The notes under the pieces: generated by a model
Database searches by the model: none
What the model was told of the DNA's origin: nothing
What the model saw: the letters and a program-made list of their open reading frames with translations, nothing else
Part shown: piece by piece, positions 5,695 to 45,186 of the stretch
Layout of the letters: each line of letters starts with the position of its first letter
Numbering within the stretch: position 1 is the first letter of the stretch
Origin: Chloroflexota bacterium
Lineage (GTDB): Bacteria > Chloroflexota > Anaerolineae > UBA4142
Direction: 5' to 3'
DNA: 45,186 nt
Assembly: GCA_016865935.1 (NCBI GenBank)
Contig: VGOB01000007.1
Location: 1 to 45,186 of the forward strand
Made by a program: the position numbers and the translations under genes

Positions 5695-5743
5695 GAAGAC
5701 ATGAAAAGTATTCTCTGGCTGTACTCGATAGTGAGTTGGATAG

Positions 5744-7778: not shown

Positions 7779-7789
7779 CTTGATTGTCC

Positions 7790-26260: not shown

Positions 26261-26286
26261 GGATTCCTCCTGAGGAATTGCGAACT

Positions 26287-26325
26287 GCGAATTAGGAATT
26301 GCGCCATTCGCAATTTGCAATTCGC
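26287..26325. repeat. REP-like palindrome before the coiled-coil gene
   Basis: GCGAATTAGGAATTGCG and CGCAATTTGCAATTCGC form a 17-bp imperfect stem (three central mismatches) with a 5-nt loop, just upstream of the Shine-Dalgarno sequence of the coiled-coil gene. The surrounding bases carry further partial GCGAATT/AATTGCG copies. Confidence 0.5.
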
Positions 26326-26333
26326 TATTCGCT

Positions 26334-27747: not shown

Positions 27748-30700
27748 TCATCCTGCCACCGCCAACTCAAACACATTTCCACTCGCGGAGCGTTGCCAGA
27801 CGAAATCATAGATTTTCTTAGCGAGTGGCTGGGTCTCTGCTTCGGTGAAGGGTGGCATTGGGAGTTTTTGATAGAGCCAGTCTAGAATGCGGGACTCGAC
27901 CTCCGCCTGTGTCTGCGTATTCTGTGTCCAGTACGGCATTGGCTTGACCAACTCTTTGAGCGACGCGAGCAAAGATTGGCTAGCTTGCTTCAATTTCTCG
28001 CGATCGGCTTGGCTCAGTTTATCTTTGTACAGCAAATCAAATAGCGCGAGTTCATCATCGCTCAAGCCCTCACGCGCCGCACGCTGTTGTTCGGCGTCCA
28101 GTTCTTGTGCAAGTTCGGTCAACTTGGTAAAGGTATCTTCAACCGTTGCGCGGTCTTTCTCGCGATTGTACTCGGCAATGATTTGTTGGTAGCGTTTGTA
28201 ATAATCCATCCGCATCGGATTACGCGCCAGCATTTGTTGCAACTTGGCTTCGACCACATCGCGAATGTCTTGGAGCGCAATGTGTTTACGGTGTACTCTC
28301 TTCGCAAATTCTTCACGCAATTTGGCGAAATCAATTTGGCTGAGGTCAACAGTATGACCGTTGGCTTGGTCGCCACCTGTACTTTGTGTGCGAATAGCTT
28401 CGTTGACGATTTTGTGAATCTCTTTGAGAATCGCGGTCACGTCTGCCATATCGCGCCGCTCGTTTAGTTTCTGGTAGATGGCTTCCAGATTATCGCGGCG
28501 TTCGGCGTACGTGAACACATTCGGATCCATCGCGAGTGCGCGGAATCGCGCCAATACTTCGCGCACCATAATCTCAAATCGCCGCTTGGCTTCGTCCGAA
28601 GTGCACAGCGCTTCAGTTGCGTCGCGCATTGCTTCGATGCGATCAAATCCTTGCGCGCCGATCAAGCGCGATGGTTCAAAGCCCAATCCTCGGAGATGAT
28701 TCTCTGCCACGTCAATGGCTTGGTCGAGTGAGCGCAGCAATTCTTCAATCGGCGCGATGATGCCACCACCTGTCGTATATCCGCCGCGCGCATCGCGTGT
28801 GCCTTTTTCATTTCCCGTGTATTCACCGTCACCAAGTGCGTACTGCGCCAATGCCTCGCGCAGACTCTTGAGCATTCCGTTGTAATCGACAATGACGCCG
28901 CAATCTTTCCCAGGGAAGACGCGATTCGCGCGCGCGATGGCTTGCATCAACGTATGCGCCTTCATTGGCTTGTCGATGTAGAGCGTCGAGAGACATTCCA
29001 CATCAAACCCAGTGAGCCACATCGCGCATACAATCGCAATGCGGAACGGATGCTTGGGATCCTTGAACGCCGTTTCCACATCAACGCGCTTGCCGTCGGG
29101 CGTTTCAAAGCCGCGTTTCATTCGGTAGCGATGCGGGATGATGTCCACGTTCCATTTCTTGAAATCGCGGACTTCGTTCTGTCCTTCGCTGATAATGATT
29201 TCGATGATCGTGCTTGCCATCCAATCGGCTTGACTACGCAACGCATCCAACTCTTTGCCGATACGTTCGCGTTCCTCGTCGTTCGTCGCAGCGGCGAGAT
29301 CGGCTTCCTTCTGCGGAATCTCGGCGACGACTTGAGCAATCTTGCTCTTCCACCGTGGCAATATGAAGTTATACATTCGTCCGCACGTAATCTTGTCGAT
29401 GCACACGAGCATTGATTTGCCTGATTCCCAGCGCGAGGAGCAATGAGCGACAAAATCATCGGCGATTTTTTCCAAGCGTTCGTCGGCGGTAATGACTTCG
29501 TAATCTTTGCCGAGCAAGCGATCCAACGAAGCGACTTGATCGGCATCGAGTTTGCCTTCTTCGATTTTCTTGGCGATGCGGTCGTTAAGATCGGGACGCG
29601 CGACCTTGAGTTTCTCGCCGCGATTTTCGTAGATGAGTTTGACGGTCGAGGCATCTTCTTCCGAGCGTTTGAAATCATAGCGCGAAACATAATCGCCAAA
29701 GATGCGCCGCGTCAGATGATCGAACTTGAAAAGTGGCGTGCCAGTGAATCCGATGAACGATGCGTTCGGCAATGCGAGGCGCATATTGCGCGCAAACTTG
29801 CCCGCTTGAGTGCGATGCGCTTCATCGGACATTACGATAATATCTTCGCGTCGGCTGTACGGTTCTTCCAGACTCACGCGTTGATTGAACTTGTGAATCA
29901 GACTGAAAATGAACCGATGATTTTCTTTCAGCAAGCGTGCGAGGTCGTGTCCCGATTCGGCGCGCGGGGTCTTGTCGTCGGCGATACCGCAACCGACAAA
30001 GGTGCGCCAGATCTGATCGTCCAAATCCTCGCGGTCGGTCATCAATAGAAAAGTGAAATTACCTGGGACGATTCGTCGCACTTTTTCGGCGAAGAATGCC
30101 ATCGAGTACGATTTACCACTGCCCTGGGTGTGCCAAAAGACACCGAGACGCCCCAGGTCGGGATGCACGCGTTCGACGAGCGGTAGTTCGGTGTCATGTC
30201 GTTCTGGCTTGCCTCGTGATTTTGGCGGAGGTTTGGCAAGCCGATACTGCAATCGTTTTTCGACTGGGAATTGTTTCTTGAGTTCTTCTTGTCGTTTCAC
30301 CGAAGCGATGGCGTTGTTCACGCCAAGCACTTGATGATTACGTGCGACGATTTTCCGCGTTCCGCCTGGCTTGCTATCATCGAACAGAATGAAATTTTCC
30401 ACGAGGTCGAGCAAGCGGTCGGGCGCGAGCATTCCGTTGAGCAAAACTTCGGCATCGACACGCCCAGGTTCTTTTTCGTCGTTGCGTTTCCATTCGGCGA
30501 AATGTTCCCACTGGCTCGTGATCGAGCCATAGCGCGCGTGATCGCCATTGCTCACGACGAGAAAGGCATTGTGATGAAAGGCGTGCGCGATGCTGGTATC
30601 GCTGAGATAATCGGTGAGGTTGTTGTCAAACCCTTCACGGATGTTGCGATAGACGGCTTTTAATTCGATAAAGACAAGCGGGAGTCCGTTGACGAAACAG

Positions 30701-31182
30701 ACGAGATCGGCGCGGCGATTATAGTACGGCATCCGCATCCCTCGAATTTTCAACTCGCGGACGGCGAGAAAACGATTATTAGGTTTGCCATTCGTTGTGC
30801 CGTTGCGAAAATCAATCACGCAAGCGCGCACGTGTTGCAGTTCGCCGTGAGCATCTTGATAACTGACGGGCACCCCATCGCGAATGTAATTGTAGAATTC
30901 TCGATTGTGTTGGACGAGGGAGCGCGCGAAATCAACTTGCGTGAGTAATTGAATGGCTTGGTCAATCGCCGAGGGAGGAAGTGCAGGGTTTAATCGTTCC
31001 AAAGCGGCGCGCAAATCGCGCACCAAGACGACCTCACGTTCGTTCGCGCGACCGAGCGTGCCGTTGGGTCCGAACGTTTCGTCGTTGAACGCATAGATGT
31101 TTTCCCAACCCAGTTGATCGTGTAGATGGTTGGCGAAAGTTTCTTGAACGAGACGGTCTTCGCTGTTGATGTCGGTAATCAT
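27748..31182 (-). CDS. hsdR: Type I restriction enzyme, endonuclease/translocase subunit
   Basis: This is the motor and nuclease subunit, ~1144 aa, near full family length. The N-terminal nuclease has the PD-(D/E)xK motif in RRADLVCFVNGLPLVFIELK. The SF2 translocase has Walker A in FWHTQGSGKSYSM (~residue 360), motif II SDEAHRTQ, motif III FIGFTGTPLF and motif VI AIARANRVFPGK. A long helical C-terminus that binds the methylase follows. ATG 31182 is preferred to the TTG at 31212 of the track. Its promoter interleaves with that of the HEPN gene. It is separated from hsdS by the HEPN-MNT pair, so it is transcribed apart from hsdM-hsdS. Confidence 0.94.
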   Translation of the reverse strand: MITDINSEDRLVQETFANHLHDQLGWENIYAFNDETFGPNGTLGRANEREVVLVRDLRAALERLNPALPPSAIDQAIQLLTQVDFARSLVQHNREFYNYIRDGVPVSYQDAHGELQHVRACVIDFRNGTTNGKPNNRFLAVRELKIRGMRMPYYNRRADLVCFVNGLPLVFIELKAVYRNIREGFDNNLTDYLSDTSIAHAFHHNAFLVVSNGDHARYGSITSQWEHFAEWKRNDEKEPGRVDAEVLLNGMLAPDRLLDLVENFILFDDSKPGGTRKIVARNHQVLGVNNAIASVKRQEELKKQFPVEKRLQYRLAKPPPKSRGKPERHDTELPLVERVHPDLGRLGVFWHTQGSGKSYSMAFFAEKVRRIVPGNFTFLLMTDREDLDDQIWRTFVGCGIADDKTPRAESGHDLARLLKENHRFIFSLIHKFNQRVSLEEPYSRREDIIVMSDEAHRTQAGKFARNMRLALPNASFIGFTGTPLFKFDHLTRRIFGDYVSRYDFKRSEEDASTVKLIYENRGEKLKVARPDLNDRIAKKIEEGKLDADQVASLDRLLGKDYEVITADERLEKIADDFVAHCSSRWESGKSMLVCIDKITCGRMYNFILPRWKSKIAQVVAEIPQKEADLAAATNDEERERIGKELDALRSQADWMASTIIEIIISEGQNEVRDFKKWNVDIIPHRYRMKRGFETPDGKRVDVETAFKDPKHPFRIAIVCAMWLTGFDVECLSTLYIDKPMKAHTLMQAIARANRVFPGKDCGVIVDYNGMLKSLREALAQYALGDGEYTGNEKGTRDARGGYTTGGGIIAPIEELLRSLDQAIDVAENHLRGLGFEPSRLIGAQGFDRIEAMRDATEALCTSDEAKRRFEIMVREVLARFRALAMDPNVFTYAERRDNLEAIYQKLNERRDMADVTAILKEIHKIVNEAIRTQSTGGDQANGHTVDLSQIDFAKLREEFAKRVHRKHIALQDIRDVVEAKLQQMLARNPMRMDYYKRYQQIIAEYNREKDRATVEDTFTKLTELAQELDAEQQRAAREGLSDDELALFDLLYKDKLSQADREKLKQASQSLLASLKELVKPMPYWTQNTQTQAEVESRILDWLYQKLPMPPFTEAETQPLAKKIYDFVWQRSASGNVFELAVAG

Positions 31183-31198
31183 TGGACAGACATTCCGT

Positions 31199-31227
31199 TT
31201 GACACGCAGCAAATTCTAGGATATAGT
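31199..31227. promoter_or_regulatory. Interleaved divergent promoters of HEPN and hsdR
   Basis: For the + strand, TTGACA (31199-31204), 17 bp, TATAGT (31222-31227) is near consensus and places the start point about two bases before the HEPN ATG at 31236. For the - strand, TAGAAT (31218-31213) is a good -10 for hsdR with a poor -35 (CTTCAT). The two -10 boxes lie within 15 bp, so the polymerases should exclude each other. Confidence 0.6.
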
Positions 31228-31235
31228 TACAAGCG

Positions 31236-31619
31236 ATGAAGCCCCAAACGCAACAATGGCTGGATATGGCTCACTATGATTTGCGCGCGGCGAAGCACAA
31301 CTTTGATACGCGCACGTATCTGTATGTCATTTTTCTCTGCCATCTGACGATTGAAAAATTGCTCAAAGGTTGCATCACAGAATTTACTGAGGATTTTCCG
31401 CCGCCGATTCACGACCTGAATAAACTTGTCCGCCTTGCTAAACTGACGCTGCCCGATGAGATGACACGCTTTGTATCGGAAATGTCCCAGAAAAGCGTTC
31501 CCGCGCGTTACCCGCAAACGCTGAATGCTTACAATCGCAAAGACGCGGAAGATTGCCTGAAACAAACACGCCGAGTCGCCAAATGGCTAGAAGCCAAACT
31601 GAAATCAAACGCCTTGTAA
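31236..31619 (+). CDS. HEPN-domain protein (toxin of a HEPN-MNT pair)
   Basis: This is a 127-aa all-helical HEPN protein: WLDMAHYDLRAAKHNFDTRT at the start, CHLTIEKLLKGCITEFTEDF in the middle and PPIHDLNKLVRLAKLTLP. HEPN proteins paired with a minimal nucleotidyltransferase are toxins, often RNases that use an RX4-6H motif, and are silenced by AMPylation or binding by the partner. A textbook R-x(4-6)-H is not obvious, so activity is uncertain. There is no Shine-Dalgarno sequence and the predicted start point is ~2 nt upstream, suggesting near-leaderless translation. It overlaps the MNT gene by 37 bp. Confidence 0.85.
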   Translation: MKPQTQQWLDMAHYDLRAAKHNFDTRTYLYVIFLCHLTIEKLLKGCITEFTEDFPPPIHDLNKLVRLAKLTLPDEMTRFVSEMSQKSVPARYPQTLNAYNRKDAEDCLKQTRRVAKWLEAKLKSNAL

Positions 31620-31942
31620 AACAATATGTGAACGCGCTTGAACCGACCATCAACGTGGATCGGATTATTCTGTATGGCTCGCATGCGAATGGACGCCCGC
31701 ATCGCTGGAGCGATATTGATCTGGCGATTGTCTCGCGTGACTTTGCCAAGAAATCCGTGTGGCAACGTCAAGGTATTTTGGGCAATGCGCTGAAAAATAG
31801 CGACGCAATGATTGAGGCACTGGGCTATAGCATTGCCGAATACAATCACGCCATCCCGCAAACTTTTCTTGGCGAAATCAAGCGCACGGGCAAGGTTGTT
31901 TACACACGGCGCAAACGCAGAACAGCGACTGCACGACGATAG
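31583..31942 (+). CDS. MNT-domain nucleotidyltransferase (antitoxin of the HEPN-MNT pair)
   Basis: This is a 119-aa minimal nucleotidyltransferase. The catalytic motif is ILYGSHANGRPHRWSDIDLA (GSxxxG then SDIDL), about residues 27-45. Known MNT partners AMPylate the HEPN toxin at a Tyr. ATG 31583 gives a product starting at the usual place; the ATG at 31553 in the track adds ten residues and a longer overlap. The pair is encoded against the direction of the surrounding restriction genes. A shared terminator hairpin follows at 31949. Confidence 0.88.
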   Translation: MARSQTEIKRLVKQYVNALEPTINVDRIILYGSHANGRPHRWSDIDLAIVSRDFAKKSVWQRQGILGNALKNSDAMIEALGYSIAEYNHAIPQTFLGEIKRTGKVVYTRRKRRTATARR

Positions 31943-31948
31943 TTCTTC

Positions 31949-31981
31949 AGACCTTCGAGGTTTCCAAAACCTCGAAGGTCT
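31949..31981. terminator. Bidirectional intrinsic terminator between MNT and hsdS
   Basis: AGACCTTCGAGGTTT and its exact reverse complement form a 15-bp stem with a 3-nt loop, followed by TTTTGTTTATT on the + strand; A residues are scarce on the left, so it is strongest for MNT. It separates two convergent genes. Confidence 0.85.
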
Positions 31982-31990
31982 TTTGTTTAT

Positions 31991-33226
31991 TCACACCGCA
32001 ATCTCTCCGCTCATCAAACGCGGAAGTAAAAGGTCACGCGCGGCGCGGAGTTTGACCTCTTGTTTTTTTAGAACACGCACTTGTCTAAAAGTATCGTAAG
32101 CAAATTCGCTGAACGATTCTAACAAAGAATGAGTTGGCACAAGAATATCCATTTCCCGAAATGTGGATTTGGATATTTCTTTATAGGTGCTTCCAACTGC
32201 TCGACCAAGTATTTCTTCTCTCCGATTCATCAGGTTGTGAAGCAGATACATTCGCAAATTTTCTTCTTTGGGAATGACCGAAATAAAACCCTGATTCGTG
32301 CAAACTACGCGGTCAACTAAACCAAAGAAGCCGATGGAAGCACGGCTTGTCATCAAGATAGTTTCAGGCGGTACCATCTTTGCCGAACTATTTTTGAGAC
32401 CTGCTTCGGTAATTTTCTTTTCAGAATCGAGCAATGCAAGACAATTGTTCCGCGTGATGTCTGTTGGCACGACCCAAGTAATATCGCCATCTTCCCAAAA
32501 TTCTGGTCGAGATGTTGAGGGTGTTCCACCACCAACACTTTCGCAAACATCGCGCATTTTCTTTTTAGCCCATCCCTCTGGCACACCCTTCACGATTCGC
32601 GTGTGCTCATAGCCAGGAAAACGCAAACGCACAAACCACTCGCGGTACAGTTGCCGCGCCGATTCTTCGAGCAACGTCATCCGTCGTCGGTTGTTTTCGA
32701 TGAGGTCGTCGTAGGCGGAGAGGACAGACGCGATTTTTTCTTGAACGCCAAAATCAGGATAACGAACAGGAATGGCTTGAATGATAGTCGAATTGAGATT
32801 GAGCATAGTTGAACCGACGGCGTGTTGCTCAATCCAAGCGACAATATTCGGCTGATCAAGATAGTGATACAAAAATTTCGGGTGCAGTCCAACTCCAGAG
32901 AGTTCAATTTTTATGCAACCACTTCCGCAGAGCGCACCTTCCTCAATTTCGGTGATAAATGCTCTCTTGTTGATCGCGCCCCGCCTCGGCATCACAATAG
33001 TTCCTAGCTTTACTTTATGCCGCTTTAATCGGTTTGCCGCTTCTTCTGAAACCCTTGCGACCGAGTCAAGTTTGATGCGTCCATCCTCAATGTCCTGTGG
33101 CATTATGAATGGAACACCTTCATCCTGATATTCTGACTGATGAAGTTGAGAACCAAAGGGTCCCGTCTGAATGAGTCCACCAAACTCTTCGCAGATTGCG
33201 CCGAGTTTTTTGTCACTCCACTTCAT
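31991..33226 (-). CDS. hsdS: Type I restriction-modification specificity subunit
   Basis: This 411-aa protein has two target-recognition domains, each followed by a conserved helix region. The first half begins WSDKKLGAICEEFGGLIQTG with GPFGSQLHQSEY, and ends FGVQEKIASVLSAYDDLIEN NRRRMTLLE. The second half begins GWAKKKMRDVCESVGGGTPS and has ITRNNCLALLDSEKKITEAG. The halves recognise the two parts of a bipartite DNA site. Its ATG overlaps the hsdM stop by four bases. The stop lies 49 bp from the converging MNT gene. Confidence 0.92.
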   Translation of the reverse strand: MKWSDKKLGAICEEFGGLIQTGPFGSQLHQSEYQDEGVPFIMPQDIEDGRIKLDSVARVSEEAANRLKRHKVKLGTIVMPRRGAINKRAFITEIEEGALCGSGCIKIELSGVGLHPKFLYHYLDQPNIVAWIEQHAVGSTMLNLNSTIIQAIPVRYPDFGVQEKIASVLSAYDDLIENNRRRMTLLEESARQLYREWFVRLRFPGYEHTRIVKGVPEGWAKKKMRDVCESVGGGTPSTSRPEFWEDGDITWVVPTDITRNNCLALLDSEKKITEAGLKNSSAKMVPPETILMTSRASIGFFGLVDRVVCTNQGFISVIPKEENLRMYLLHNLMNRREEILGRAVGSTYKEISKSTFREMDILVPTHSLLESFSEFAYDTFRQVRVLKKQEVKLRAARDLLLPRLMSGEIAV

Positions 33227-35394
33227 ACGAGTTCCTCAAAGTTCTCATGAATCTTTGACGCAAGTTCAATCGCTTCCTTGTCCAAGTCGTCAAGTTCAGT
33301 GTGAATGTCGCGCAACGTCGCTTCAAAATCAAAATCGTCATCTTCCTCTTGCGGCGCAACCCCCACGTATCGCCCTGGCGTCAAACTCCAATCTGCTTTT
33401 TCAATTTGCTTGCGGTCAACCACCTTGACCAAGCCATCCACGTTTTGCAATTCCGCTTTGGGGAAACGGTCTTGCAACCAAACGACCTGGCGGAAAAAAT
33501 AGGTCGCTTGTTTGAGTTGCTCAACTGCCGCTTTGCGTTCCTCGTCCAATTGCTTCACCAACTTGCTCACCGCGCGACGGTCGTATGCTGCGAGGAGCGC
33601 AGTCGTGTCCGCGTCCACGTTGCCATTGGTGGATTGCTTGGCGTTTTCGGCACTCGCATTGACAAACACTTCGTTGAGCAAATCCGCCGCACGCGACGCC
33701 AGTTTGTAGAGCAAGTCAATTTGCTTGACGAGTCCCTTGATTTCTTCGGCGAGCGGCTCGAACTTTTTGCGCGCGGCGCGTTGCGCCTCGTTCGTCGCAG
33801 GCAATGCTTGCTCGTACTTGTTCCGAAAAGTTTCAAGACCACCCAGCAAGCGCGAACGGTCCGCTTGATACGGCGCGAGCGCATCGCGCAATTCTGCCGC
33901 CGCGTCCGTCGCCAATTTTGTTTTATCGGCATCAACTTTTTCCAACTTGGCGATAGCTTGCACGCCCGCATCGAATCGTTCGCACAAAGTATTGACCGTC
34001 GCATCAAACGCATCGAGCATCGCAGGCACTGCCGCGCTTTCGGCGCACACCGATTCAACGTACTGCTTGACCAGACCCAGGAAACGATCGGGCTGATCGC
34101 GATAAAGCCAAACAATCGCAGCGATGTTGGCGAGGTGTTCGGGCGAGAAATCGTTGATCTTGCGCGTCACCTTGCGATAGACATTGCGCGCATCGATCAT
34201 CAACACCTTGTCACGCCGCGCTTTCGGTTTGCCGCGATCAAAGAACCACAATTCGCACGGCACGCTCCGCGTGTAAAAGAAATTCGAGCGAATGGCGACC
34301 ATCACATCCACATCGCCCGTCTCGACCATCTTTTGGCGCACTTCTTTTTCGCCGTGTCCCGCGCTCGATGCCTGGGACGACATCACAAAACCCGCGCGTC
34401 CTTTTTCGTTCAAGTAACTGTAGAAATAGGAAATCCACAAATAGTTTCCGTTCGAGACGCGCTTGTTTTTGTTCACGCCAGGCAAACCGAACGGCAGACG
34501 CGGATCAGTCTTGATGCGCTCGGCGTCCACCAAGTCCACGTTGAACGGTGGATTCGCCATCACGAAATCGCACTTGCCAACCTGGGCTAGGTCGAAATCA
34601 TAGTACGTGATCGCTTCGGCGATTTTTCCTTCGAGTCCGTGCACCGCCAAATTCATTTTGGCGATGCGAATCGTGTCGCGGTTTTTCTCCTGCCCATAAA
34701 ATACGACCTTACGCATCGTGTCATCGCCCGCGCGTTCGATAAAATGACTCGATTGCACAAACATTCCGCCAGAGCCGCACGCTGGGTCAAGGACGATGCC
34801 GTGATTCGGTTCGATCACATTGACAATCGTTTGCACGAGCGATGACGGCGTAAAGAACTCGCCGTTGTCGTGCGCCTTTTGCACCGAAAACTTTGCTAGG
34901 AAATATTCGTAGATGCGTCCAAAGACATCGCCCGTCGCTTGCTTGATCTGCTCGCTGTTGAAAAGCCGCAACAAGTCTTCGAGAACTTTCGGTTCAAAGA
35001 TGCCATAGTCTTTGGGCAGAACACCTTTCAACGGCTCGAATTCATTTTCGATTGCCGTCATCGTTTCGGTGATCAACTTGGGCAAATCTTTCGTCGTCGC
35101 GGCGTCTTGCATAATGTTGTCGTAACGCGCCTTCTCTGGCAACCACAATGCGCGGCGACGAATATAATCCGCTTTGACGATAGGACGCTTGGGGATTTTG
35201 CCGCTGGCTTGCTCAGTTTGAATCTCACGCGTCGCGGCATCAAAACGATTTGCCGCGTGGCGCAAAAAGATGGCACCCAGCACGGGCATAAAATAATCGC
35301 TGGAGGTCAACTTGGAATTGGCGCGTAGTTGGTCCGCCGCTTCCCAGAGATCGTTTTCTAGTTTTTCAATGTCGTGGAGAGGGTTATGATTCAT
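33223..35394 (-). CDS. hsdM: Type I restriction-modification DNA methylase subunit
   Basis: This is an N6-adenine methyltransferase subunit. An N-terminal helical HsdM domain (HDIEKLENDLWEAADQLRAN) is followed by the catalytic fold with SAM motif LDPACGSGGMFVQ (~residue 215) and NPPF (~285), both intact. Residues ~480-723 form a long coiled-coil-rich C-terminal extension (LVKQIDLLYKLASRAADLLN) that is longer than in EcoKI-type HsdM. ATG 35394 is chosen over the upstream GTG of the track because it begins the family-typical sequence and lies behind the promoter and leader hairpin. Confidence 0.93.
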   Translation of the reverse strand: MNHNPLHDIEKLENDLWEAADQLRANSKLTSSDYFMPVLGAIFLRHAANRFDAATREIQTEQASGKIPKRPIVKADYIRRRALWLPEKARYDNIMQDAATTKDLPKLITETMTAIENEFEPLKGVLPKDYGIFEPKVLEDLLRLFNSEQIKQATGDVFGRIYEYFLAKFSVQKAHDNGEFFTPSSLVQTIVNVIEPNHGIVLDPACGSGGMFVQSSHFIERAGDDTMRKVVFYGQEKNRDTIRIAKMNLAVHGLEGKIAEAITYYDFDLAQVGKCDFVMANPPFNVDLVDAERIKTDPRLPFGLPGVNKNKRVSNGNYLWISYFYSYLNEKGRAGFVMSSQASSAGHGEKEVRQKMVETGDVDVMVAIRSNFFYTRSVPCELWFFDRGKPKARRDKVLMIDARNVYRKVTRKINDFSPEHLANIAAIVWLYRDQPDRFLGLVKQYVESVCAESAAVPAMLDAFDATVNTLCERFDAGVQAIAKLEKVDADKTKLATDAAAELRDALAPYQADRSRLLGGLETFRNKYEQALPATNEAQRAARKKFEPLAEEIKGLVKQIDLLYKLASRAADLLNEVFVNASAENAKQSTNGNVDADTTALLAAYDRRAVSKLVKQLDEERKAAVEQLKQATYFFRQVVWLQDRFPKAELQNVDGLVKVVDRKQIEKADWSLTPGRYVGVAPQEEDDDFDFEATLRDIHTELDDLDKEAIELASKIHENFEELV

Positions 35395-35407
35395 AGGAAA
35401 TAGATAA

Positions 35408-35436
35408 GCCCGCCCTGGTCGTTGACCAGAGCGGGC
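35408..35436 (-). promoter_or_regulatory. Leader hairpin of hsdM
   Basis: In the - strand RNA, GCCCGCTCTGGTC and GACCAGGGCGGGC form a 13-bp stem (one G-U) with a 3-nt loop, ending 13 nt before the hsdM ATG and followed by UUAUCUAUUU. Downstream of the hsdM promoter, it could attenuate transcription or hinder ribosome access. Confidence 0.55.
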
Positions 35437-35501
35437 GACAACGCGCACTCTCAATCGCCTCAGGTGGTCAACGCAACTTGAGCCGTTCCTGATTCGTTCT
35501 G

Positions 35502-35530
35502 ATTATATCCCAATTTGCACGGCTTAACAA
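35502..35530 (-). promoter_or_regulatory. Promoter of hsdM-hsdS
   Basis: On the - strand TTGTTA (35530-35525), 17 bp, TATAAT (35507-35502). The -35 lies at the stop of the upstream ATPase-like gene. The expected start is near 35495, giving a ~100-nt leader that contains the hairpin at 35408-35436. Confidence 0.7.
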
Positions 35531-36903
35531 GATTCCCGAACAGCCGATTCGTCTCTATACCACTTGTGAATGAACGGCGTGCGCTCTGATCTGACGTCAT
35601 TTACGGGTCGAGCGCATGACTTGACGCGAGACAGGATTCGTTCCACGGCGCGTCGATCAGTTTTGAGTGGCGGCGCGGCTGTAATCCGCTCGACCAGTAT
35701 GTTCTGACTCTCCGTGAGGGAGCGAACGTAGCATGCGTGGTAGGGCAAATCGACGAGGTCGCGGGCTGACACGCACTCACCCAGTGTGTCACACAGCACT
35801 TGGGCATCATACCCCGTTGGGCAGAAGACAAAAAGGTTCGTCGCGTTCTCAAGAAGTGCTTGCGGCAATCCTGGTCCCTTGGTTTCTGGGCGACTGACGA
35901 AATCATAAGGCAGGATGTAACTCGCTCCACGTCTTTGGAGTTCCACAAGGAATTCCGGATCATCGAGATACGGAATCTGCAGATTGCCATTGACCGCGAC
36001 GACGAGTGGAGTCGGTAGAACCCCTGAGGTGGCTTGCCGTTCCATCACCAGCAAGTTGACTCGATCCGCCAAAAGCGCGGCAAGCCAGCGCCGCATTTCG
36101 GGCAGGAGCGCCATCCCGCTGGCGTTGAGCAGGGTGACGCGCGCGGGCTCGAGCCACGCGCGTGGATCGACGGTCGAGGTGGACTGACCGAGAACGTTCG
36201 CGGCGCTGTCCGCAACGAGCGTGTGCAAGGGAGTGATGAGAGTTGCCATCAAGTCCAGATCGGCGAACACTTCCAGAGATTCCAGGTCCCCATTCCCCCA
36301 TCTGGTCAGGTCAGAAGCACCCAAGAACTTGAGAATCCGGCGACGGAAATCAGCCGATTCAAAGAGCGCGGGAACATCCAAGAGTGTGAATTGCGGCTCC
36401 TTTCTTTCGACCAAGACTCGATTCGCGGCGATGAAAATTCGGACCGCTGCGCTGAGCGCCTCGGCTGCGTGTGGGTTCCAGTACTTGCCCCACAACCCAG
36501 CCGCCGTGCGCGCAAGGTTCGCGAAAATAAAATCCGCATCGTCACCGTGACTCACATCGAGCAGATTCCAACCCGGGATGTGTGATTCATTGCTCAAATC
36601 AATCAAGCAGACATCCTCGGCGCGCTTGCGCGGAATATGCGCGAGGAGATGGGGCACCAAATCGCCTTCCATGTCGATGACGACGAGTGCCGCGCCATTT
36701 TGCATCGCGGCGTACGCCAGATGCCCGCTGAGCGTGGTCTTGCCGGTCCCCGCCCGACCGACGAGCACCGAGTGACCGCGCAGTTGATCTGGGGAAAGCC
36801 GAAAAGGCGACTGCTTGTTGCCCCGAACGACGAAGCCAACAGTCGCATCCTTTGACATCTTGCGCCATTTCGATAGAAACGGCATCTTGAAAATCGATCT
36901 CAC
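35524..36903 (-). CDS. TraG/HerA-like ATPase paralogue with degenerate Walker B
   Basis: This is a 459-aa P-loop protein related to the ATPase domain of the gene at 39026-42097. Walker A is GRAGTGKTT (~49-57), followed by ALVVIDMEGDLVPHLL where the large paralogue has VVVIDPHGDLARAVL. Further shared blocks are FTLLDVPALFE and LLVMERQATSG. At the position of the paralogue's IDEFQSIPG this protein has VNGNLQIPY (~residue 302), losing both Walker B acidic residues. It may bind ATP without normal hydrolysis. The GTG start at 36903 is fixed by AAAGGAGG five bases upstream. It has no N-terminal membrane or Zn-ribbon part. It may regulate the large ATPase. Confidence 0.8.
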   Translation of the reverse strand: MRSIFKMPFLSKWRKMSKDATVGFVVRGNKQSPFRLSPDQLRGHSVLVGRAGTGKTTLSGHLAYAAMQNGAALVVIDMEGDLVPHLLAHIPRKRAEDVCLIDLSNESHIPGWNLLDVSHGDDADFIFANLARTAAGLWGKYWNPHAAEALSAAVRIFIAANRVLVERKEPQFTLLDVPALFESADFRRRILKFLGASDLTRWGNGDLESLEVFADLDLMATLITPLHTLVADSAANVLGQSTSTVDPRAWLEPARVTLLNASGMALLPEMRRWLAALLADRVNLLVMERQATSGVLPTPLVVAVNGNLQIPYLDDPEFLVELQRRGASYILPYDFVSRPETKGPGLPQALLENATNLFVFCPTGYDAQVLCDTLGECVSARDLVDLPYHACYVRSLTESQNILVERITAAPPLKTDRRAVERILSRVKSCARPVNDVRSERTPFIHKWYRDESAVRESC

Positions 36904-37101
36904 AGTTTCCTCCTTTGGGAATTTGAATGGGTTGGTTTTTTCTCATTCACTCCAACCGATTGTTGATCAACGCAATGTGGATTCATTGCGCCGACAGAAT
37001 ATTGTCCTCCACAGAAACGATTACGACCACGACGATTTGGCTCTGCGATTTCTGCGTCTGTGGTTGAATTGGGTTGTGGCGGGAAGCCACACGCTGATCT
37101 T

Positions 37102-39051
37102 TCAGCGCGATTTGTCGGTGAAACATTCAAAGCAACAGGCCTTGGGACTCTTCGCCGCGCGTTCTGAACGCGCGACATCTCCGCGCAACCAGATCGGCGC
37201 GTCGACGCCACTCGCCGTGAGGCGATCAAACGTCGTGACGAAAATCGGAAAGCGGACTTTTTCTTCAAGCGCCGCACGTCGCCACGCTTCCGCGCGCTCC
37301 CAGCTGTTGGTCACGACGAGCAGGCGCAAGAACTCGATCCCTTCGCTGCGAAGAACGTTCGAGTTGATGCAGGCGTCGTATTCCGACAACTTGCCGCGAA
37401 ACCGCGCGAGCGGCGAGCGGCTGCGATCAATTTCGAGCGCGAACTCGTACCGCTTTTTGCCAGCGATGTACGCGCCGCGCCCATCCGGGAGAAAACTGTG
37501 CCAGCGCGGGCCTGCCTCGTAATACAAACGACCCTCCAATTCGGAAAGCCAGGTCAGCCGATGATGGCGTTCGCGCGCAACCTCTGCCAGACGGAGAAAG
37601 AATTCGTTTTCGGCTTTCGTGTGTTCCAGATGCCGCACCATCTCGCTAAAGCCGCCCGCCCAGCCGCGCGCTCGCGCGTATCGGCGCACGGCGTTCCCAA
37701 ACCCGGCAACCAGCGCGAGATACTGTTGTCCCTTGGGCGCGACGAGATAACGCGACTCGTGCGGCTCGATCAGTTTCAACCGGGACATCTCTGCAAGCGC
37801 CGGGCGCACCCAGCGTAATGTGCCCCTGAGCAAGAGAGTCAGTTCCTCGCGTGTCAGCAAAGGATGCGCGGCAATCTCGTCCAGAAGTCGTTTGGCGAGC
37901 GGAGTCAGATTGAGCGAGATCTGCGCGAGTTCACTCAAACTTAGCGCGCCTTCAATCTTCTTTTCATCGTTTTGGACTCCTTGTTCAATGCGAGATAATT
38001 CTGGCGTAATTACGCCGTTATTCTTTTCGGCGTGCGTATTCTTGGTCCTTGTCTCACCAAGCGGCATCTTGCGCCATGGGACTTGATCGGGCAACGGAGT
38101 CCTTGACCCTTCCGTGTCGAACAAAAGCGCGGTGCGGTGTCCTGATATTGTCGAGTACCAGATCGGGCTCGCGCGGTCATTCCGCAGCGATAACATCGCG
38201 CGGACGGTGGTGAGGTAGGCGCGCGGCATCGGTAGTTGGCGCGAAAGAGCGGCTGAACGGAGAATCGAGTAGTATTCCTGGAGACGCAGTTCGTCTTGCG
38301 CGATGACCAAGAGCACGGGGAAAAGCGCTTCCCTCCCCTTGCCCCAGTAGCGCGGATCGTCCTGCGCCGCGACGAATTGCGCAAAGCGCTCACGGACACC
38401 CTCCACCGGCGCGCGGTTCAGATCGAACTCGACGACGACGAAAGCCCAACCTCCATCCTTCGACTGCGTTGCACTCCGCTCAGGACTACGTTGCATAATC
38501 GCAGCGCCGTGGAATGGAATCCAAACCGCACTTCGTTTCGTGCTGAAGAGCTTGCCCACCTCGACATCCCAGGTCACTGCCTGCCAGAGTCCTGTGTTAT
38601 TCGGCGATGCATTGGCGGCAACGTCTTTCGCGGTGGGATTACTCGTTTGCCTGCCCGAACGGTTTCGGTTCATCGGACGTTTCGGCTTGGGAGGAGAGAG
38701 CCACAGAAACAGGGTTCGCACCTGAAAGACGCGCTCCAGCGTGACGACGAGCCGATTCAGCCGTTCCGTGGATAAGCGAGACTGCGCGGCAACATCGCTG
38801 AAGGGAATTCCCGCCTGCTGCGCCAATTCCTCCAGCCCCGCGTGTGTTGGCGCGTAGATCGCGCGTGCATGCATCCCTGGCTGCCGCGCATTCGCCTGCC
38901 AGATCAGTCCGCGCTTTCGCAGTTCACGCAATCCATACCGCACGCCAGCCGATGAAACGTGGAGCAGCAATTCCAACTGCCGTCGGGAAAGGAGCGGATG
39001 CTCGCACAACGCTTTCAGGATTGCATCACGGATTCGCGATCGCTTCTTCAT
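37102..39051 (-). CDS. Replic_Relax-type protein with two tandem HTH plus nuclease-like halves
   Basis: This ~649-aa protein consists of two related halves. Half 1 has a winged helix (ILKALCEHPLLSRRQLELLL) and an alpha/beta segment with WAFVVVEFDLNRAP and LFPVLLVIAQDELRL. Half 2 repeats the order: winged helix (LLDEIAAHPLLTREELTLLL), then RYEFALEIDRSRSPLARFRG and FLRLLVVTNSWERAEAWRRA. This arrangement matches replication-relaxation (Replic_Relax) family proteins, which are found on plasmids and integrative elements and whose exact job is poorly known. ATG 39051 follows AGGAGG and overlaps the ATPase stop by 26 bp; the GTG at 39117 is the track start. It lies between the two ATPase paralogues. 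Confidence 0.75.
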   Translation of the reverse strand: MKKRSRIRDAILKALCEHPLLSRRQLELLLHVSSAGVRYGLRELRKRGLIWQANARQPGMHARAIYAPTHAGLEELAQQAGIPFSDVAAQSRLSTERLNRLVVTLERVFQVRTLFLWLSPPKPKRPMNRNRSGRQTSNPTAKDVAANASPNNTGLWQAVTWDVEVGKLFSTKRSAVWIPFHGAAIMQRSPERSATQSKDGGWAFVVVEFDLNRAPVEGVRERFAQFVAAQDDPRYWGKGREALFPVLLVIAQDELRLQEYYSILRSAALSRQLPMPRAYLTTVRAMLSLRNDRASPIWYSTISGHRTALLFDTEGSRTPLPDQVPWRKMPLGETRTKNTHAEKNNGVITPELSRIEQGVQNDEKKIEGALSLSELAQISLNLTPLAKRLLDEIAAHPLLTREELTLLLRGTLRWVRPALAEMSRLKLIEPHESRYLVAPKGQQYLALVAGFGNAVRRYARARGWAGGFSEMVRHLEHTKAENEFFLRLAEVARERHHRLTWLSELEGRLYYEAGPRWHSFLPDGRGAYIAGKKRYEFALEIDRSRSPLARFRGKLSEYDACINSNVLRSEGIEFLRLLVVTNSWERAEAWRRAALEEKVRFPIFVTTFDRLTASGVDAPIWLRGDVARSERAAKSPKACCFECFTDKSR

Positions 39052-42000
39052 CCCCCTCCTCATTGCGCGCACGGCGGTCTCGTTCGGCTTGGTCTTCCGA
39101 AATACCCAGGGTACCACTCAGAGGAATTTGCGCGGACTCGGCTGTTTCATTACCGCCAATCACCAAGTCTGCTCCCGGCGTCACCTGCCCTGAATCTCCT
39201 GGTTCGGTACCGCCTATCACCCAATCGGCCCCCGGCGGCATTGTCCCTGAATCTGCAAGTTCAACACTGTCACTCATCAACTCTGCTTCCGGCGGAGCAT
39301 GATCTGACGCGCTTGACTCACTACCGTCAGTCGGTGAATGAGCATCCGCCGGCGGTTGACTTGACGCCGCTGGCTTGGGACTCTCAGAGTTCCTCTTGTC
39401 GCCCGAGCGATCCCTGGGCGAACCAGGGAGTTTGTTTTCCAACATCAACTTTTTCAGCATCGCGCGCTCGCGACCATACCACTGTTCCTGAAAACTATCC
39501 CGCTCGGAGGCGACGACGGACATCGCGCGCGTGTACCGCCCCATCTGTCCTGTGATTTGCGCGATGACTGCGCGATTCTGCGGCGGCGGGGGCAACGTCG
39601 CGACGTGCATCACGGGCAGCCGCGTGTGCCGCAATTGCGTTTTCACGTAGCAGGTGTAATCATCCAGATTGATAATGTCCGTCGCGGTCACCGCCTCGTC
39701 CAATTCGTGCCGCAACAGATCGGCATCTTCGGCGCTCGTCTGGAACACAAAGAGCGACGCGATGTTCGATAGAATCGAGGCGCGCAATTCTTTGTTGATT
39801 GCATCGAGCTGCCCCAATGCCTGGGTCGCGAGAATGAAACTCGCCCCCATCTTCTGCAGTTCGGCGAGTAGTCCCTTGTAGTCCACGCCAGGGATGGATT
39901 GGAATTCGTCAATCACGACGATGACTTTGGCGCGCGCCGACGGATCGGGAATCGCCATCTGTTCGCGCACGGCAAAGTTGATGTAATCCACGATGACCGC
40001 ACCCAGGATTCCTCCTGCATCGGGACCGATCACACCCGTTGCCGTGTTGACCAACAGAATGCGGCGTTCAGCGAGGAGTTCGCGAAAGTTGATCGTCGAC
40101 CGGGATTGCGCGACAACACCCCGAATCGTCGCGTGCGTCGAAAAGCGGTGAATCTTGGTCTGGACCGGGTTGATCACGTCGATCTGCAGGTTCTGATACA
40201 TCCGCTCATAGTACCCGCTCCACCATTCCAGAATGTCGGCGTCTTTGACGTAATCCTTCAAGAGGCGATGGCGAAAGTTGCCGAGTTCAAAGAGCGGCAG
40301 AACATCGAGGAGCGTGAATTGCTGCTGCCCTCGTATTGCAAACCTTTCGTTGATGTAGAGCAAAGTGCGCGCCGCCATTCGCAGCGCGTCTTCCATGCGC
40401 GGTCCCCAGTAATCGCTCCAGATCATCTCGCCGACGTGGACGAGGTGCGAGACAACCCGATCCGCGCTGCGTCCCTGCGTCATGTCCAGCAGATTGAGTC
40501 CGACGAGTTGACTCCTGTCGCTCAGATCGACGTAGACGACATCCTTCGCGCGCGACGGTGGAACGACGCCGAGCACCGCGCGCGCCAGGTCGCCATGCGG
40601 ATCGATCACCACAACCGCCGCATCTTTCTTCATCGCCTCGACCGCGAGATTCGCCATCAACGTGGACTTGCCTTTCTGCGTCTTGGCGATCATAAAGTTG
40701 TGATGCCACAAGGTTTCGGCATCGAGATGCACGGGAATCCGCTGCCCTTGATGCACCGAGTGCCCGATGAGAATGCCTGTCTCGACGGTGTTGGGCAGCG
40801 GCAGGAGTCGTTTCGCTTTCGCGCGTTCGACGAACGGCGCCTCGAATCCCACCGGCAGATGCCACATCGACGCGATTTCGGCGACGGTCAGCCGCATTCC
40901 ACGATCCAACCATTCGTCCCACACCGGTTTGGATGGGAGCGCGATGTCGCGTGGATCGAACTCCGCGAGGCGCGCCTCGAGCGCATTCCCGCTCGCGAGA
41001 TTGAATTGGGCATAAGCTTTGGCAAGCGACCGCAAGCGCAGTCGTGCGAGTCCGGGTGTTTGCGCGAACGCGGTTAGGCGGAGCGCTACGTCGTACGCCG
41101 ATGAACCCTCCAACTTGCGTTTCACCATTTCAGGGTTGACGTTGGTTACGTCCCCCATGGACTTGATCGCGTAGAGCACGCCGCCCAGGGCCGTGATGCC
41201 GGTGACAAGTGCCACCCCAAATTCCAACCAGCGCTGTTGCAGTCCCGTGACGACTCCGCACAAAACCGTCATGAGCAAGAAGCAAGAAACGACGAGTCCA
41301 GCGAATTGCCGCAGGAATAGATTCACGGAGCGCGGCCCTCCCTCGCCCGTCCCCCGTTCGACCTGCCGCTCCATACCTTGATAACGATCCGCCCGGTTCG
41401 CCGGCGCAGGGAACAGGATCAGTTGCGACAGCATTCGCTCGCCTTGTTCCAGGTCGGCAAAGGTGCCGAGGAGTCCGAGCACCGGATCGGCTTCCAGAAA
41501 ATCGCCATTGCGAAAAGTTCGCAACGGAAGATACAGCGGCTTGCGCAGCGAGAACTCAGCAGACATACGCGCGAGTGTGTGCTCGTACGCTGGGTCTTCT
41601 TCGGGCGGGACAGCGCGGAACTCGGCTTGCGGATAGGTTGCCTGAATCTGGCGACGGAGATGCGCGACGGTCGCGCGCGGCGCGCGAAAGAGCAAACGCC
41701 GCACGTGCGCATCGCCAGCAATCTCAAGCGAGAAGGGTGTCTCCGCAGCAAAGCAACTGAGCAAGAGTTCGACCGCGAGCGCGTCGACGGTGTTCTCGCG
41801 CGGGGGAATGATCTCAAACACTTCCGTCGGCTCAGTGAACGATGGCGGCGCGGCAGAGTTCAGTGTTCCAGTTCTTGCAGGAGCACTGAATCGTGGAGGA
41901 GACGCGCTGGGGTCCGCCGTAGCCGTGCCGAACTTCGGGACGGGCGCGCTGGGCTTCAGAAAGGATGCGAACCCGCGCGTGCCGAGTTCAACGCGTTCGA

Positions 42001-42097
42001 GCGCGATGCCGCAACACATAAAGCGGCGCGCGCCGGCATCCAGCGGGCGATAGGTAGTTCCGCATTTCAGACAGCGATAGATAGCAACAGTTGGCAT
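39026..42097 (-). CDS. Large Zn-ribbon TraG/VirD4-HerA-like ATPase
   Basis: This is a 1023-aa membrane ATPase. It has an N-terminal zinc ribbon (YRCLKCGTTYRPL, RRFMCCGIAL), a long N-terminal domain of ~200 residues, and two membrane helices (~270-320, FAGLVVSCFLLMTVLCGVV). The P-loop domain follows: MIAKTQKGKSTLM (~470), VVVIDPHGDLA, FTLLDVLPLFELGNFRHRLL, KVIVVIDEFQSIPG (~730) and LLAELQKMGASFILATQ. The ATPase motifs are complete. The C-terminal ~120 residues are low complexity with a 19-residue repeat. Such proteins act as coupling ATPases that bring DNA to a secretion channel or pump DNA. ATG 42097 has GAGG upstream; the track start at 42178 is rejected. Confidence 0.85.
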   Translation of the reverse strand: MPTVAIYRCLKCGTTYRPLDAGARRFMCCGIALERVELGTRGFASFLKPSAPVPKFGTATADPSASPPRFSAPARTGTLNSAAPPSFTEPTEVFEIIPPRENTVDALAVELLLSCFAAETPFSLEIAGDAHVRRLLFRAPRATVAHLRRQIQATYPQAEFRAVPPEEDPAYEHTLARMSAEFSLRKPLYLPLRTFRNGDFLEADPVLGLLGTFADLEQGERMLSQLILFPAPANRADRYQGMERQVERGTGEGGPRSVNLFLRQFAGLVVSCFLLMTVLCGVVTGLQQRWLEFGVALVTGITALGGVLYAIKSMGDVTNVNPEMVKRKLEGSSAYDVALRLTAFAQTPGLARLRLRSLAKAYAQFNLASGNALEARLAEFDPRDIALPSKPVWDEWLDRGMRLTVAEIASMWHLPVGFEAPFVERAKAKRLLPLPNTVETGILIGHSVHQGQRIPVHLDAETLWHHNFMIAKTQKGKSTLMANLAVEAMKKDAAVVVIDPHGDLARAVLGVVPPSRAKDVVYVDLSDRSQLVGLNLLDMTQGRSADRVVSHLVHVGEMIWSDYWGPRMEDALRMAARTLLYINERFAIRGQQQFTLLDVLPLFELGNFRHRLLKDYVKDADILEWWSGYYERMYQNLQIDVINPVQTKIHRFSTHATIRGVVAQSRSTINFRELLAERRILLVNTATGVIGPDAGGILGAVIVDYINFAVREQMAIPDPSARAKVIVVIDEFQSIPGVDYKGLLAELQKMGASFILATQALGQLDAINKELRASILSNIASLFVFQTSAEDADLLRHELDEAVTATDIINLDDYTCYVKTQLRHTRLPVMHVATLPPPPQNRAVIAQITGQMGRYTRAMSVVASERDSFQEQWYGRERAMLKKLMLENKLPGSPRDRSGDKRNSESPKPAASSQPPADAHSPTDGSESSASDHAPPEAELMSDSVELADSGTMPPGADWVIGGTEPGDSGQVTPGADLVIGGNETAESAQIPLSGTLGISEDQAERDRRARNEEGDEEAIANP
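39149..39262 (-). repeat. Tandem 57-bp repeat inside the large ATPase gene
   Basis: Two adjacent 57-bp units encode ELADSGTMPPGADWVIGGT and EPGDSGQVTPGADLVIGGN, and a third, diverged unit (ETAESAQIPLSG) follows. They form the acidic, Pro/Gly-rich tail of the ATPase and may be a flexible docking region. Confidence 0.7.
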
Positions 42098-42705
42098 CCA
42101 TACCTCTCTGCGCGTCCTTGTGTACGCGGGTATAAACAGAAATGACCTTGGGCACCATGATTTTCTCTTTGCCCGCATGCGATTGGCTGGTCCTTTGCTC
42201 GTTGGCAGACCCAGTTTGTATCTATCGCCTCACTTTTCTCAGAAAGCACATGAATGCCAACGTCCCTGCAAACTCCAAGCGGCAAGACGTGATGAGACTC
42301 TTCCCACTTTGGGAGGAGAAAAGTTTACTCCTGTGTGTGTGCACGCGATGTGCAAACCGGGACTGACTTGCGTTGAGTGCCGTTCTTGGCTGGCGAAAGA
42401 CCTGAAGTTGTGTGTGTGTGCAAAGGATATGAAAACTAACTGATTGGCGACTCTGGTGAAACCGACCCAATGGATGGTGCACTTGTTCCGGAATGAACTC
42501 CTGGCGCCGCGCCAATGTGCGGAGTGCTTGCCGGCAAACCGCACCCATGTGTCCCGCGCGCACACACACGGTGGTCTATGGCTTCTCCCAAAGTCCGAAG
42601 AGTACGTGCCCGTCTGACCGGGCGCCGGATTGCGGATGCCGGACGTCTTCCCATCGCTTTCCCTGCCGGCTGTGGACGATGAACAACGCCACAGCTTCCA
42701 GCACC
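42098..42705. other. 608-bp gap without a supported gene
   Basis: The ORFs on both strands here have no ribosome-binding site. The stretch carries GT tracts (TGTGTGTGTGCA near 42332 and again near 42410) and an opposing CACACACAC near 42560. A + strand frame of 46 codons from 42474 contains CAEC and ends at 42614, and an upstream frame holds several Cys, but the cysteines largely come from the GT tracts. It may hold a promoter for the ATPase gene or part of an origin; nothing decisive is seen. Confidence 0.4.
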
Positions 42706-45186
42706 TCACTTCGCAAGCCCTCCCAGCGCGATGGCCTCCGCAAGCTCAGCAGGCGTACTCAGTCCACGGATCCTCAACATGCCCTCGTCGAGTTGACCCT
42801 TTTCGCTCATCTTGTAGACATATTTCTTTCCCTGCCCACCGCTGATGACCTCAAGGTATTCTCGATTCTCAAGTGGACGAACGTAGGTCACTACAAAATC
42901 ATAGGGCGTCCTAGCCCAGGTCGCGATGTCAGAGCGAGTGAATGTGCTGCGCCGTTCGTGCTCTGATTTGCCTTCATCTTCGCTCGCCCATCTTGCCAAG
43001 CCAGCGCGAATGGTTCCCAGCAGGGCACGGCTGTGTTCTGGCAGTTCGTCCAATCCCGCGGCAATTGCTGGAGCAGCATAGCGATACGCCACGTCATAAT
43101 CCGCCAAATCGGCTTCGATGTACTCGATAGGGCCATCCATCGTGGCGTCCGAATCCGTCTTCCTGGGTTTTTGCTTTTGACGAAGAAAGGCAATTGCTTT
43201 GATGACTTCGAGGAAACGCGGCAGGTCACGGCGCGTGCGTGGAACATCCGCCGGGAATTTGATCAAGTCGGCATAGGGAATCGCGACCTTGACCGGCTCA
43301 AGCAACCGTTGCGCGTTGCGATGCCGACGCAAAACCGCTTCTTTCCCGCTTTCGCTCCGCAATCCCTCGATGGTGGCATGCTTGCGTTGAACCTCATGGA
43401 TGCGTTGCGTTTGTTTCTCGGTCCCGTCCAGATACAGTTCGAAAACGCGCGTCGCGTTTTCGCTGTGAATGGTGGGGCGCGTCGTTGTTTCGGTATATGC
43501 CATCGGCCCGTTGACCTGGCTCTCCCGCGTGCGCATTTCTCCCGTCAGCGGATCCTTCGTGGCATACGCGACTCGAATGACATTCTCCGATTGCAGGACC
43601 CGAATGGTGTAATCGCTTTCCTCGGAGCCATTGCGTTCGGTCACCACCATGAATTTGTGCTGCAAAGCGTTCGGGGGAAGGTACGCCAGAGACTGAGCTG
43701 TTAACCGCGTGTATTCGGCCACATCCTCGGGCGGCATCAGGCGCGCAACCTTTTTGACCATCTCTGATTTGCCCCACGCCGATGGACTCTTGACGACCGC
43801 TGAGAGAGGACAATCCTGTTTGCGCGATGTTGCCACCAGATACTGGAGAACTTTGTTGGCGTCCTCGCCGACGTAACCCAACGTGGTAATGTCTTGGATA
43901 ATCCGCTCGAACAGGCGCGGGTCTTGGAGCAACGCCATGGCTTCCGCGCGCTCTTCGTCTGTCATCTCCCTTGCCTTCGCGGCTTGCGCCTCTTCCTCCG
44001 CCACCCTCTCCTTGACCTGGCGCATCTGCTCGGACTGTTCCCAGCCGTCGCGTAGTTTCGCCAAATCGCTCTCGTAGGCGCGGACTGCCGAATAGGTGAG
44101 TCCAAAGTGTGGCTTGATCTTGTAGTTGAGAAACGCACTGGAAATTGCTTTACCCATTGGCGCAAGCTCCTCAAGGATCGGGCGCAGCACCAGGGGGAGG
44201 CGCAGTTTGTCGGTATCCGCTGGCACCTGCTCCACCTTCGCTTCCAACTCTGCAATCCGCGCCTTCATCAAATTTGCTTCATCGTCCAAGCCCTCCTCCA
44301 CTGTTTCTGCGGCAGGATGGTCGGAGTTTCGGTTCTGCACCAGGTGCGGCACTCTCATCCCCGCCTCAAGCCCGCTTCGAATTGTTGCGATGGCTTCGCG
44401 TTCTCCCAGCCCGATTGCGCGCGCAGAATCAAAGAGGCGCGCCTCGGCGATTGAGCGATTGAGTGATCCGGTCGCGATGAGTTGACCGAGCGTAAATGCG
44501 GCTTTATTCAATTGCGCATTGCGCTTGCCCTCGACCGTCGCCAAGAGTTGATCGATCTCGCGCTGCAAGACCGCCGCCTCATCGTTGCGGTTGGGCTCAT
44601 TCGGTTGAATTGGAAATTCACGCAGCACACGGCCGACCCGGGCGGTCAGTCGTTCCAGGTCTTCCAGCGTGTAGCCACGTTCCCAATCCGTCCGCACGAA
44701 ATCAACGCGTGGATAGTTCGGTGCGTACTGCGGCTTGAAATTACGTGTGCCTGGGATACGCAGAACTCGCGCGAGGTCTTTCGCGCCGATATCGCCCTTC
44801 ACCAACGCCACCCAGCTCGCTTGCAGTTGACGCGCCCGGTCTCGATCTGACTCAGTCGCGATCACGAACGGATCGCGCAGAAACCAGTAGCAATGATAGC
44901 CCCCGCCACTGTCGGCGATGACAGAAGGTGCGGCTGGCAAAGCATCAAGGTGCTCCCTCACTTTTCCCTTGTCGCCAAAGTCTGCCGCGTCGAAATCGGC
45001 GAAGACACAGTTGATGCCGGCGATATCCGCAATGCGCGCCCGCTCGTGATCGCTGCGCTTACGGCTCGTTGGATGGACGCCATAGAACCAGTTGCCTTGC
45101 TCTGAAGGGATGGCGGTTGGGTTGTCGGACTGCCACCAGATGCTTAGCTTGCTCTCCGCATTCCACCAATACCCATACTCTCCACC
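42706..45186 (-). CDS. Primase-polymerase (AEP-like) replication protein with P-loop domain, 5' truncated by the window
   Basis: The frame stays open to the right edge, past the GTG at 44961 where the track begins; the extra ~75 residues include the catalytic INCVFADFDAADFG motif. With SGGGYHCYWFLRDP (His motif) and VLRIPGTRNFK it matches archaeo-eukaryotic-type primase/polymerases of plasmids and elements. A helical linker (residues ~180-330) leads to a helicase-like domain with SPSAWGKSEMVKKV (~467), where the first Gly of a normal P-loop is replaced, and FMVVTERNGSEESDYTI. The last ~150 residues include a winged-helix-like region. It is probably the replication initiator or replicative primase-helicase of the element. 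At least 826 codons are present; the start lies outside. Confidence 0.82.
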   Translation of the reverse strand, partial: GGEYGYWWNAESKLSIWWQSDNPTAIPSEQGNWFYGVHPTSRKRSDHERARIADIAGINCVFADFDAADFGDKGKVREHLDALPAAPSVIADSGGGYHCYWFLRDPFVIATESDRDRARQLQASWVALVKGDIGAKDLARVLRIPGTRNFKPQYAPNYPRVDFVRTDWERGYTLEDLERLTARVGRVLREFPIQPNEPNRNDEAAVLQREIDQLLATVEGKRNAQLNKAAFTLGQLIATGSLNRSIAEARLFDSARAIGLGEREAIATIRSGLEAGMRVPHLVQNRNSDHPAAETVEEGLDDEANLMKARIAELEAKVEQVPADTDKLRLPLVLRPILEELAPMGKAISSAFLNYKIKPHFGLTYSAVRAYESDLAKLRDGWEQSEQMRQVKERVAEEEAQAAKAREMTDEERAEAMALLQDPRLFERIIQDITTLGYVGEDANKVLQYLVATSRKQDCPLSAVVKSPSAWGKSEMVKKVARLMPPEDVAEYTRLTAQSLAYLPPNALQHKFMVVTERNGSEESDYTIRVLQSENVIRVAYATKDPLTGEMRTRESQVNGPMAYTETTTRPTIHSENATRVFELYLDGTEKQTQRIHEVQRKHATIEGLRSESGKEAVLRRHRNAQRLLEPVKVAIPYADLIKFPADVPRTRRDLPRFLEVIKAIAFLRQKQKPRKTDSDATMDGPIEYIEADLADYDVAYRYAAPAIAAGLDELPEHSRALLGTIRAGLARWASEDEGKSEHERRSTFTRSDIATWARTPYDFVVTYVRPLENREYLEVISGGQGKKYVYKMSEKGQLDEGMLRIRGLSTPAELAEAIALGGLAK

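Follow-up and report, generated by a model that had tools for sequence, protein, structure and literature searches.

A coupling protein, a MOBC-like relaxase candidate and a putative pseudo-ATPase paralogue in a Chloroflexota mobile element

The three genes at 35524-42097 of the window (the whole analysed stretch of 45,186 nucleotides, i.e., contig 7 of the 4.8 Mb draft genome of an uncultured Chloroflexota bacterium) make up the DNA-transfer core of a mobile element integrated there and form a conjugation coupling-protein and relaxase-type module of known kind. We consider it likely that this core comprises a VirD4/TrwB-type coupling protein (T4CP), a MOBC-like relaxase and a maintained pseudo-ATPase paralogue of the coupling protein, and that it belongs to a Chloroflexota mobilizable (or formerly conjugative) element. 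This reading draws on gene order, homology, the loss of motifs in all orthologues of the small ATPase, coding constraint, a TrwB-like predicted fold and the conjugative setting of relatives, i.e., Chloroflexota metagenome-assembled genomes that are named here by G-numbered loci. That is, a machine of known kind (T4CP plus MOBC-like relaxase) has a new, lineage-restricted part, whose role we infer. The initial annotation had proposed one machine for moving or relaxing DNA that resembles no described system; the former holds in the form of a conjugation core, the latter is not supported, since relatives have this core among conjugation genes.

On the minus strand, the transcription order is primase/helicase-like gene, large ATPase, Replic_Relax gene, small ATPase and type I restriction-modification (R-M) genes. 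We describe the transfer core of a Chloroflexota mobile-element family, of which no earlier description was found in the open-access literature. A natural, maintained, dead T4CP paralogue beside an active one would offer a convenient way to test the number of active sites needed per ring and the gating, and the small ATPase is experimentally tractable and well conserved across a narrow range.

The coupling protein and the relaxase candidate

The large ATPase (39026-42097, minus strand) has 1023 amino acids when counted from the conserved ATG at 42097, a start common to its relatives. A cysteine-rich N-terminus is followed by two predicted transmembrane (TM) helices (amino acids 258-276 and 290-308 by hydropathy, with stronger peaks in the G012 orthologue), the motor and a long low-complexity C-terminal tail. 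Both motor motifs are present, i.e., Walker A as AKTQKGKST (40661-40687) and Walker B as IDEFQSIPG (39887-39913), and the Pfam families TrwB_AAD_bind (42.9 bits), T4SS-DNA_transf (24.9 bits) and DUF87 all match above their cut-offs. Judged by these features, it is a membrane-anchored VirD4/TrwB-type T4CP, which it resembles in motor domain, N-terminal TM pair and the adjoining relaxase-type gene. Coupling proteins act as gatekeepers in conjugation, and the usual picture is that of a homohexamer.

The adjoining gene (37102-39117, minus strand, 671 codons) matches PF13814 with 55.6 bits (cut-off 25.3) in two stretches, as expected for the duplicated Replic_Relax protein that had been annotated between the ATPases. 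Its C-terminal half keeps PDG (37480-37488), EIDR and KLSEY, while PFHG (38506-38517) replaces PDG in the N-terminal half. The same holds in an alignment of relatives: wherever the C-half is complete (15 sequences and a separate C-half from G012:C72), PDG is followed by E-x-D/E and then K, while none of 16 N-halves has an Asp at the PD position. The nine nearest show PFHG here, and the N-half keeps W..E as well as, in most of the 16 sequences, E.D. Judged by these motifs, the Replic_Relax protein likewise consists of one intact and one degenerate half, and this pairing is more widespread than that of the ATPases, i.e., it appears across far more relatives.

In the predicted structure (pLDDT 71), the two halves resemble each other in how their elements are ordered. 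A Foldseek search with this model returned MarR winged helices at E-values of 0.007 or worse and no nuclease, such that we propose the nuclease fold on the basis of motifs. According to Coluzzi et al. (PMC5357655), CONJscan identifies PF13814 relaxases as MobC, and streptococcal integrative and mobilizable elements (IMEs) combine them with VirD4 coupling proteins; from this work we take the equivalence of PF13814 and MOBC. MOBC enzymes are proteins with a winged helix and a PD-(D/E)XK domain (PMC12857230). The C-half of the window protein is like MOBC relaxases (TraX of pAD1, MobC of CloDF13; PF13814) in having a putative winged helix followed by a PD-(D/E)XK-like motif set (PDG...ExD...K), and the pairing with a VirD4-type coupling protein is likewise seen in streptococcal IME class 8 (PMC5357655). 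The window protein differs from them as a tandem duplicate, one half of which is without the PD Asp in all relatives examined. We thus regard it as a relaxase candidate, MOBC-like, with a putative winged helix and nuclease-like domain present twice. CloDF13 was of limited use as a MOBC yardstick: the annotation of its mob region in that record is fragmentary, and a single protein from it, when scanned, matched no relaxase family. A plasmid scan with the Replic_Relax protein returned no relatives.

In two loci (G012:C72, L036 10412-12491, and L045, about 4199-6101), the Replic_Relax halves lie in different frames as two overlapping ORFs, which may be a gene split, a frameshift or an assembly error. 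Two more two-half Replic_Relax genes are found within one genome (G000:C146 and G000:C167; L053 and L054), on short contigs on which neither a large nor a small ATPase was seen.

The small coupling-protein paralogue

The small ATPase (35524-36903, minus strand, GTG start) is a soluble T4CP paralogue of 459 amino acids, and hydropathy reveals no N-terminal TM peak in it or in any of its orthologues. Its Walker A is kept as GRAGTGKTT (36733-36759), whereas the aligned place of Walker B reads VNGNLQIPY (35968-35994), so that the motif contrast with IDEFQSIPG described in the initial annotation is found again. This loss extends beyond one genome. The catalytic Walker-B Glu is Gly in 3/3 small orthologues but Glu in all 103 other distinct T4CP-type motors compared, and no small paralogue with an intact Glu was found among the relatives. 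On the other hand, the Walker-A Lys is present in 106/106 distinct motors, the small three included, and GKTT is fully conserved among the latter. The Walker-B Asp is Asn in two of the three and kept in the G005 copy.

The loss is not confined to the Walker B acids, contrary to what the initial annotation had stated, since all three small proteins also lack P78-H79 of DPHGD, K225, R297, F307, Q308, Q338 and Y430 (consensus residues at the positions of the small protein, all near-invariant in active homologues). We also weighed an arginine-finger swap between the two ATPases, large and small (positions 323-324), but dropped it, as the small protein of the window does not have it.

Despite these losses, the AF2 model of the small protein (pLDDT 84.6, pTM 0.86) shows a TrwB-like motor fold, with TrwB delta N70, i.e., the soluble part of the coupling protein, as best PDB match (E-value 2e-11) and Cag-beta and DotL structures among further fold matches; sequence searches of the PDB yielded no usable motif mapping. 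Compared to VirD4/TrwB T4CPs, the small protein thus shares the predicted fold but neither the TM segment nor the catalytic Walker-B Glu. In general, elements are known to encode a single active T4CP and not an active/dead pair.

Orthologues are present in G012:C72 (41% identity) and G005:C165 (38%), in both cases directly 3' of Replic_Relax; these orthologues in two other elements support a maintained active/degenerate pair of TraG/HerA-type ATPases around a two-half Replic_Relax protein. A profile built from the three small proteins themselves scored these with 793-856 bits in a scan of 396 genomes of the class, while the next matches were large proteins with at most 413 bits. When the small protein alone was run against a genome collection, or its alignment against viral contigs, no relatives were returned, and among plasmids all matches were distant HerA/T4CP ones. 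Within the subfamily, the genes co-occur consistently: the small gene or a remnant of it is present in all four elements whose Replic_Relax genes are most similar, while five less similar loci of the family are without it, and the remaining loci showed no second T4CP. Only three intact small genes are known, all in one family.

Within the tree, the small proteins form a clade (support 100/100) that is nested inside the large proteins of the same family (97/96) on a long stem, for which the tool warns of long-branch effects. This placement fits one duplication followed by fast change, which also manifests in the identities for the same pair of elements (41% for the small versus 78% for the large protein). 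Between the small genes, pN (0.37-0.44) amounts to roughly 1/2 to 2/3 of pS (0.62-0.73, near saturation). Their three frames are intact at 37-41% identity and contain no stops, compared to a mean of 10.7 and a minimum of 5 in 200 neutral simulations at the same identity. Given the conserved orthologues, the absence in five loci and the clear coding constraint, the small protein is, as far as sequences can tell, one lineage-restricted duplication turned maintained pseudo-ATPase.

Possible roles of the small protein

In the mechanism we propose, the large protein would be the anchored motor, hexameric by analogy, which receives the complex of relaxase and nicked DNA and passes it on to a type IV channel. 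Nicking would fall to the C-half of Replic_Relax, which is probably catalytic, while the N-half probably only binds DNA. The small protein would stem from a duplication of the coupling protein's motor domain with loss of membrane anchor and catalytic residues; as a pseudo-ATPase it probably binds ATP without hydrolysis, and its most likely docking site is the ring of the coupling protein or the relaxosome, which it may help to load or gate.

Two versions of this proposal are about equally likely, each being a tentative option. The small protein could sit inside the coupling-protein hexamer, such that dead sites in a mixed ring set stepping or gating. It descends from the ring protein itself, is encoded in the same cluster as the large protein and keeps Walker A and the full TrwB-like motor fold, all of which are in line with ring membership. 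The loss of invariant basic and polar residues besides Walker B (K225, R297, Q338) is at odds with this, as is an evolution much faster than that of the large protein, which is unlike a subunit of a tight ring. Alternatively, it could act outside the ring as a soluble, ATP-sensing adaptor that bridges the relaxosome and the anchored motor. The N-terminal TM anchor missing from every small orthologue, the position of the gene directly 3' of the relaxase-like gene and fast divergence beside a conserved P-loop agree with such a bridge, which is on the other hand deduced from the missing anchor and catalysis.

A further-reaching version, which we consider rather doubtful, combines a heteromeric motor ring of active and pseudo-ATPase subunits with an active/dead tandem relaxase that feeds it, i.e., asymmetry at both nicking and pumping. 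Cag-beta/CagZ, the DotL complex and Pex1/Pex6 are alike in their general principle, in which a partner modulates a motor. The partners CagZ and those of DotL are not known to be T4CP paralogues, unlike the small protein, and Pex1/Pex6 is an unrelated AAA+ pair. Coupling proteins that are heteromeric or duplicated were searched for in the open-access literature and not found. A dead motor subunit that derives from a T4CP and belongs to a conjugation core is likewise not described there as far as we found; the setting (ICE/IME conjugation) is known.

It is improbable that the small gene is a decaying duplicate without function. Long branches in the tree and the many lost invariant positions would fit decay, as would G002:C4, where Replic_Relax is intact and 90% identical but the equivalent of window positions 37096-35668, i.e., most of the small gene, is deleted and only a C-terminal scrap is left. 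The large ATPase of this element is, however, broken too, by an insertion of about 140 bp (L038, about 7659-7801) and a later frameshift. The G002 element is thus decaying as a whole, and its loss of the small gene says little about dispensability. Furthermore, the three intact frames, pN well below pS, the absence of stops (versus at least 5 in each simulation) and the fully conserved Walker A GKTT contradict decay.

Element setting and cargo

The assignment of the core as a conjugation module follows from relatives that hold it between VirB4/M23 and ParB/helicase/integrase genes. G012:C72 shows the order VirB4-like ATPase, orf113, M23 peptidase, T4CP, Replic_Relax, small ATPase, ParB, DnaB-like helicase and tyrosine integrase. 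In G005:C165, whose contig begins within Replic_Relax such that the large partner lies outside the sequence, Replic_Relax is followed by the small ATPase, ParB and, downstream, a serine recombinase. G005:C57 has size-matched genes at the VirB4, M23 and orf113 positions, then T4CP, Replic_Relax and ParB, and no small gene. No homologue of the G012-type VirB4 was found in the draft assembly of the window's own genome, and G002:C4 carries a serine recombinase upstream. The window element is therefore probably mobilizable and not self-transmissible, i.e., at best mobilizable unless the assembly misses genes. Streptococcal IME class 8 combines a serine integrase, a MobC-type relaxase and a VirD4 coupling protein (PMC5357655).

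Upstream of the T4CP, the gene at 42706-45186 (minus strand, cut by the contig end) encodes a primase/helicase-like protein of the element (weak RepB_primase match; phrog_2478 DNA polymerase/primase, 9e-12), and the same upstream gene is found in G002:C4 with 84% identity. The non-coding gap between both genes (42180-42700, no strand assigned) contains inverted GTGTGTGTGC/GCACACACAC repeats, i.e., GTGTGTGTGCACGCG/CGCGCGCACACACAC, and is a candidate oriT or replication origin; G002 has a comparable pair at the equivalent position (L038 5670-6120). For the window, the predicted fold of the gap is better than that of shuffled sequences (z -2.7), which does not hold for G002 (z -0.2), and we thus treat it only as a lead.

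The type I R-M genes (27748-35454, minus strand), i.e., HsdR (27748-31212), HsdS (31991-33226) and HsdM (33223-35454), were identified by Pfam for HsdM and HsdS and by defence-profile matches for all three, and are cargo downstream of the module and outside the machine. We rejected as very improbable that the three core genes form a HerA-like or MADS-type defence system tied to these neighbours, as suggested by HerA/mad8 profile similarity and the adjoining R-M genes, because the mad8 and HerA matches are weak, the R-M genes are ordinary type I (788 bits of HsdM to such methylases versus 119 to mad2) and the G012:C72 module lies with VirB4, M23, ParB and integrase genes and has no R-M genes beside it.

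The closely related G002 element carries a different type I R-M set in opposite orientation at the same place (L038 11375-19213 versus window 27748-35454), so this position is possibly a cargo hotspot. Finally, within the region presumed to belong to the element, a predicted tRNA-Thr (25099-25193) overlaps the end of a coiled-coil ORF (25028-26449) and may be an integration scar or a false call.
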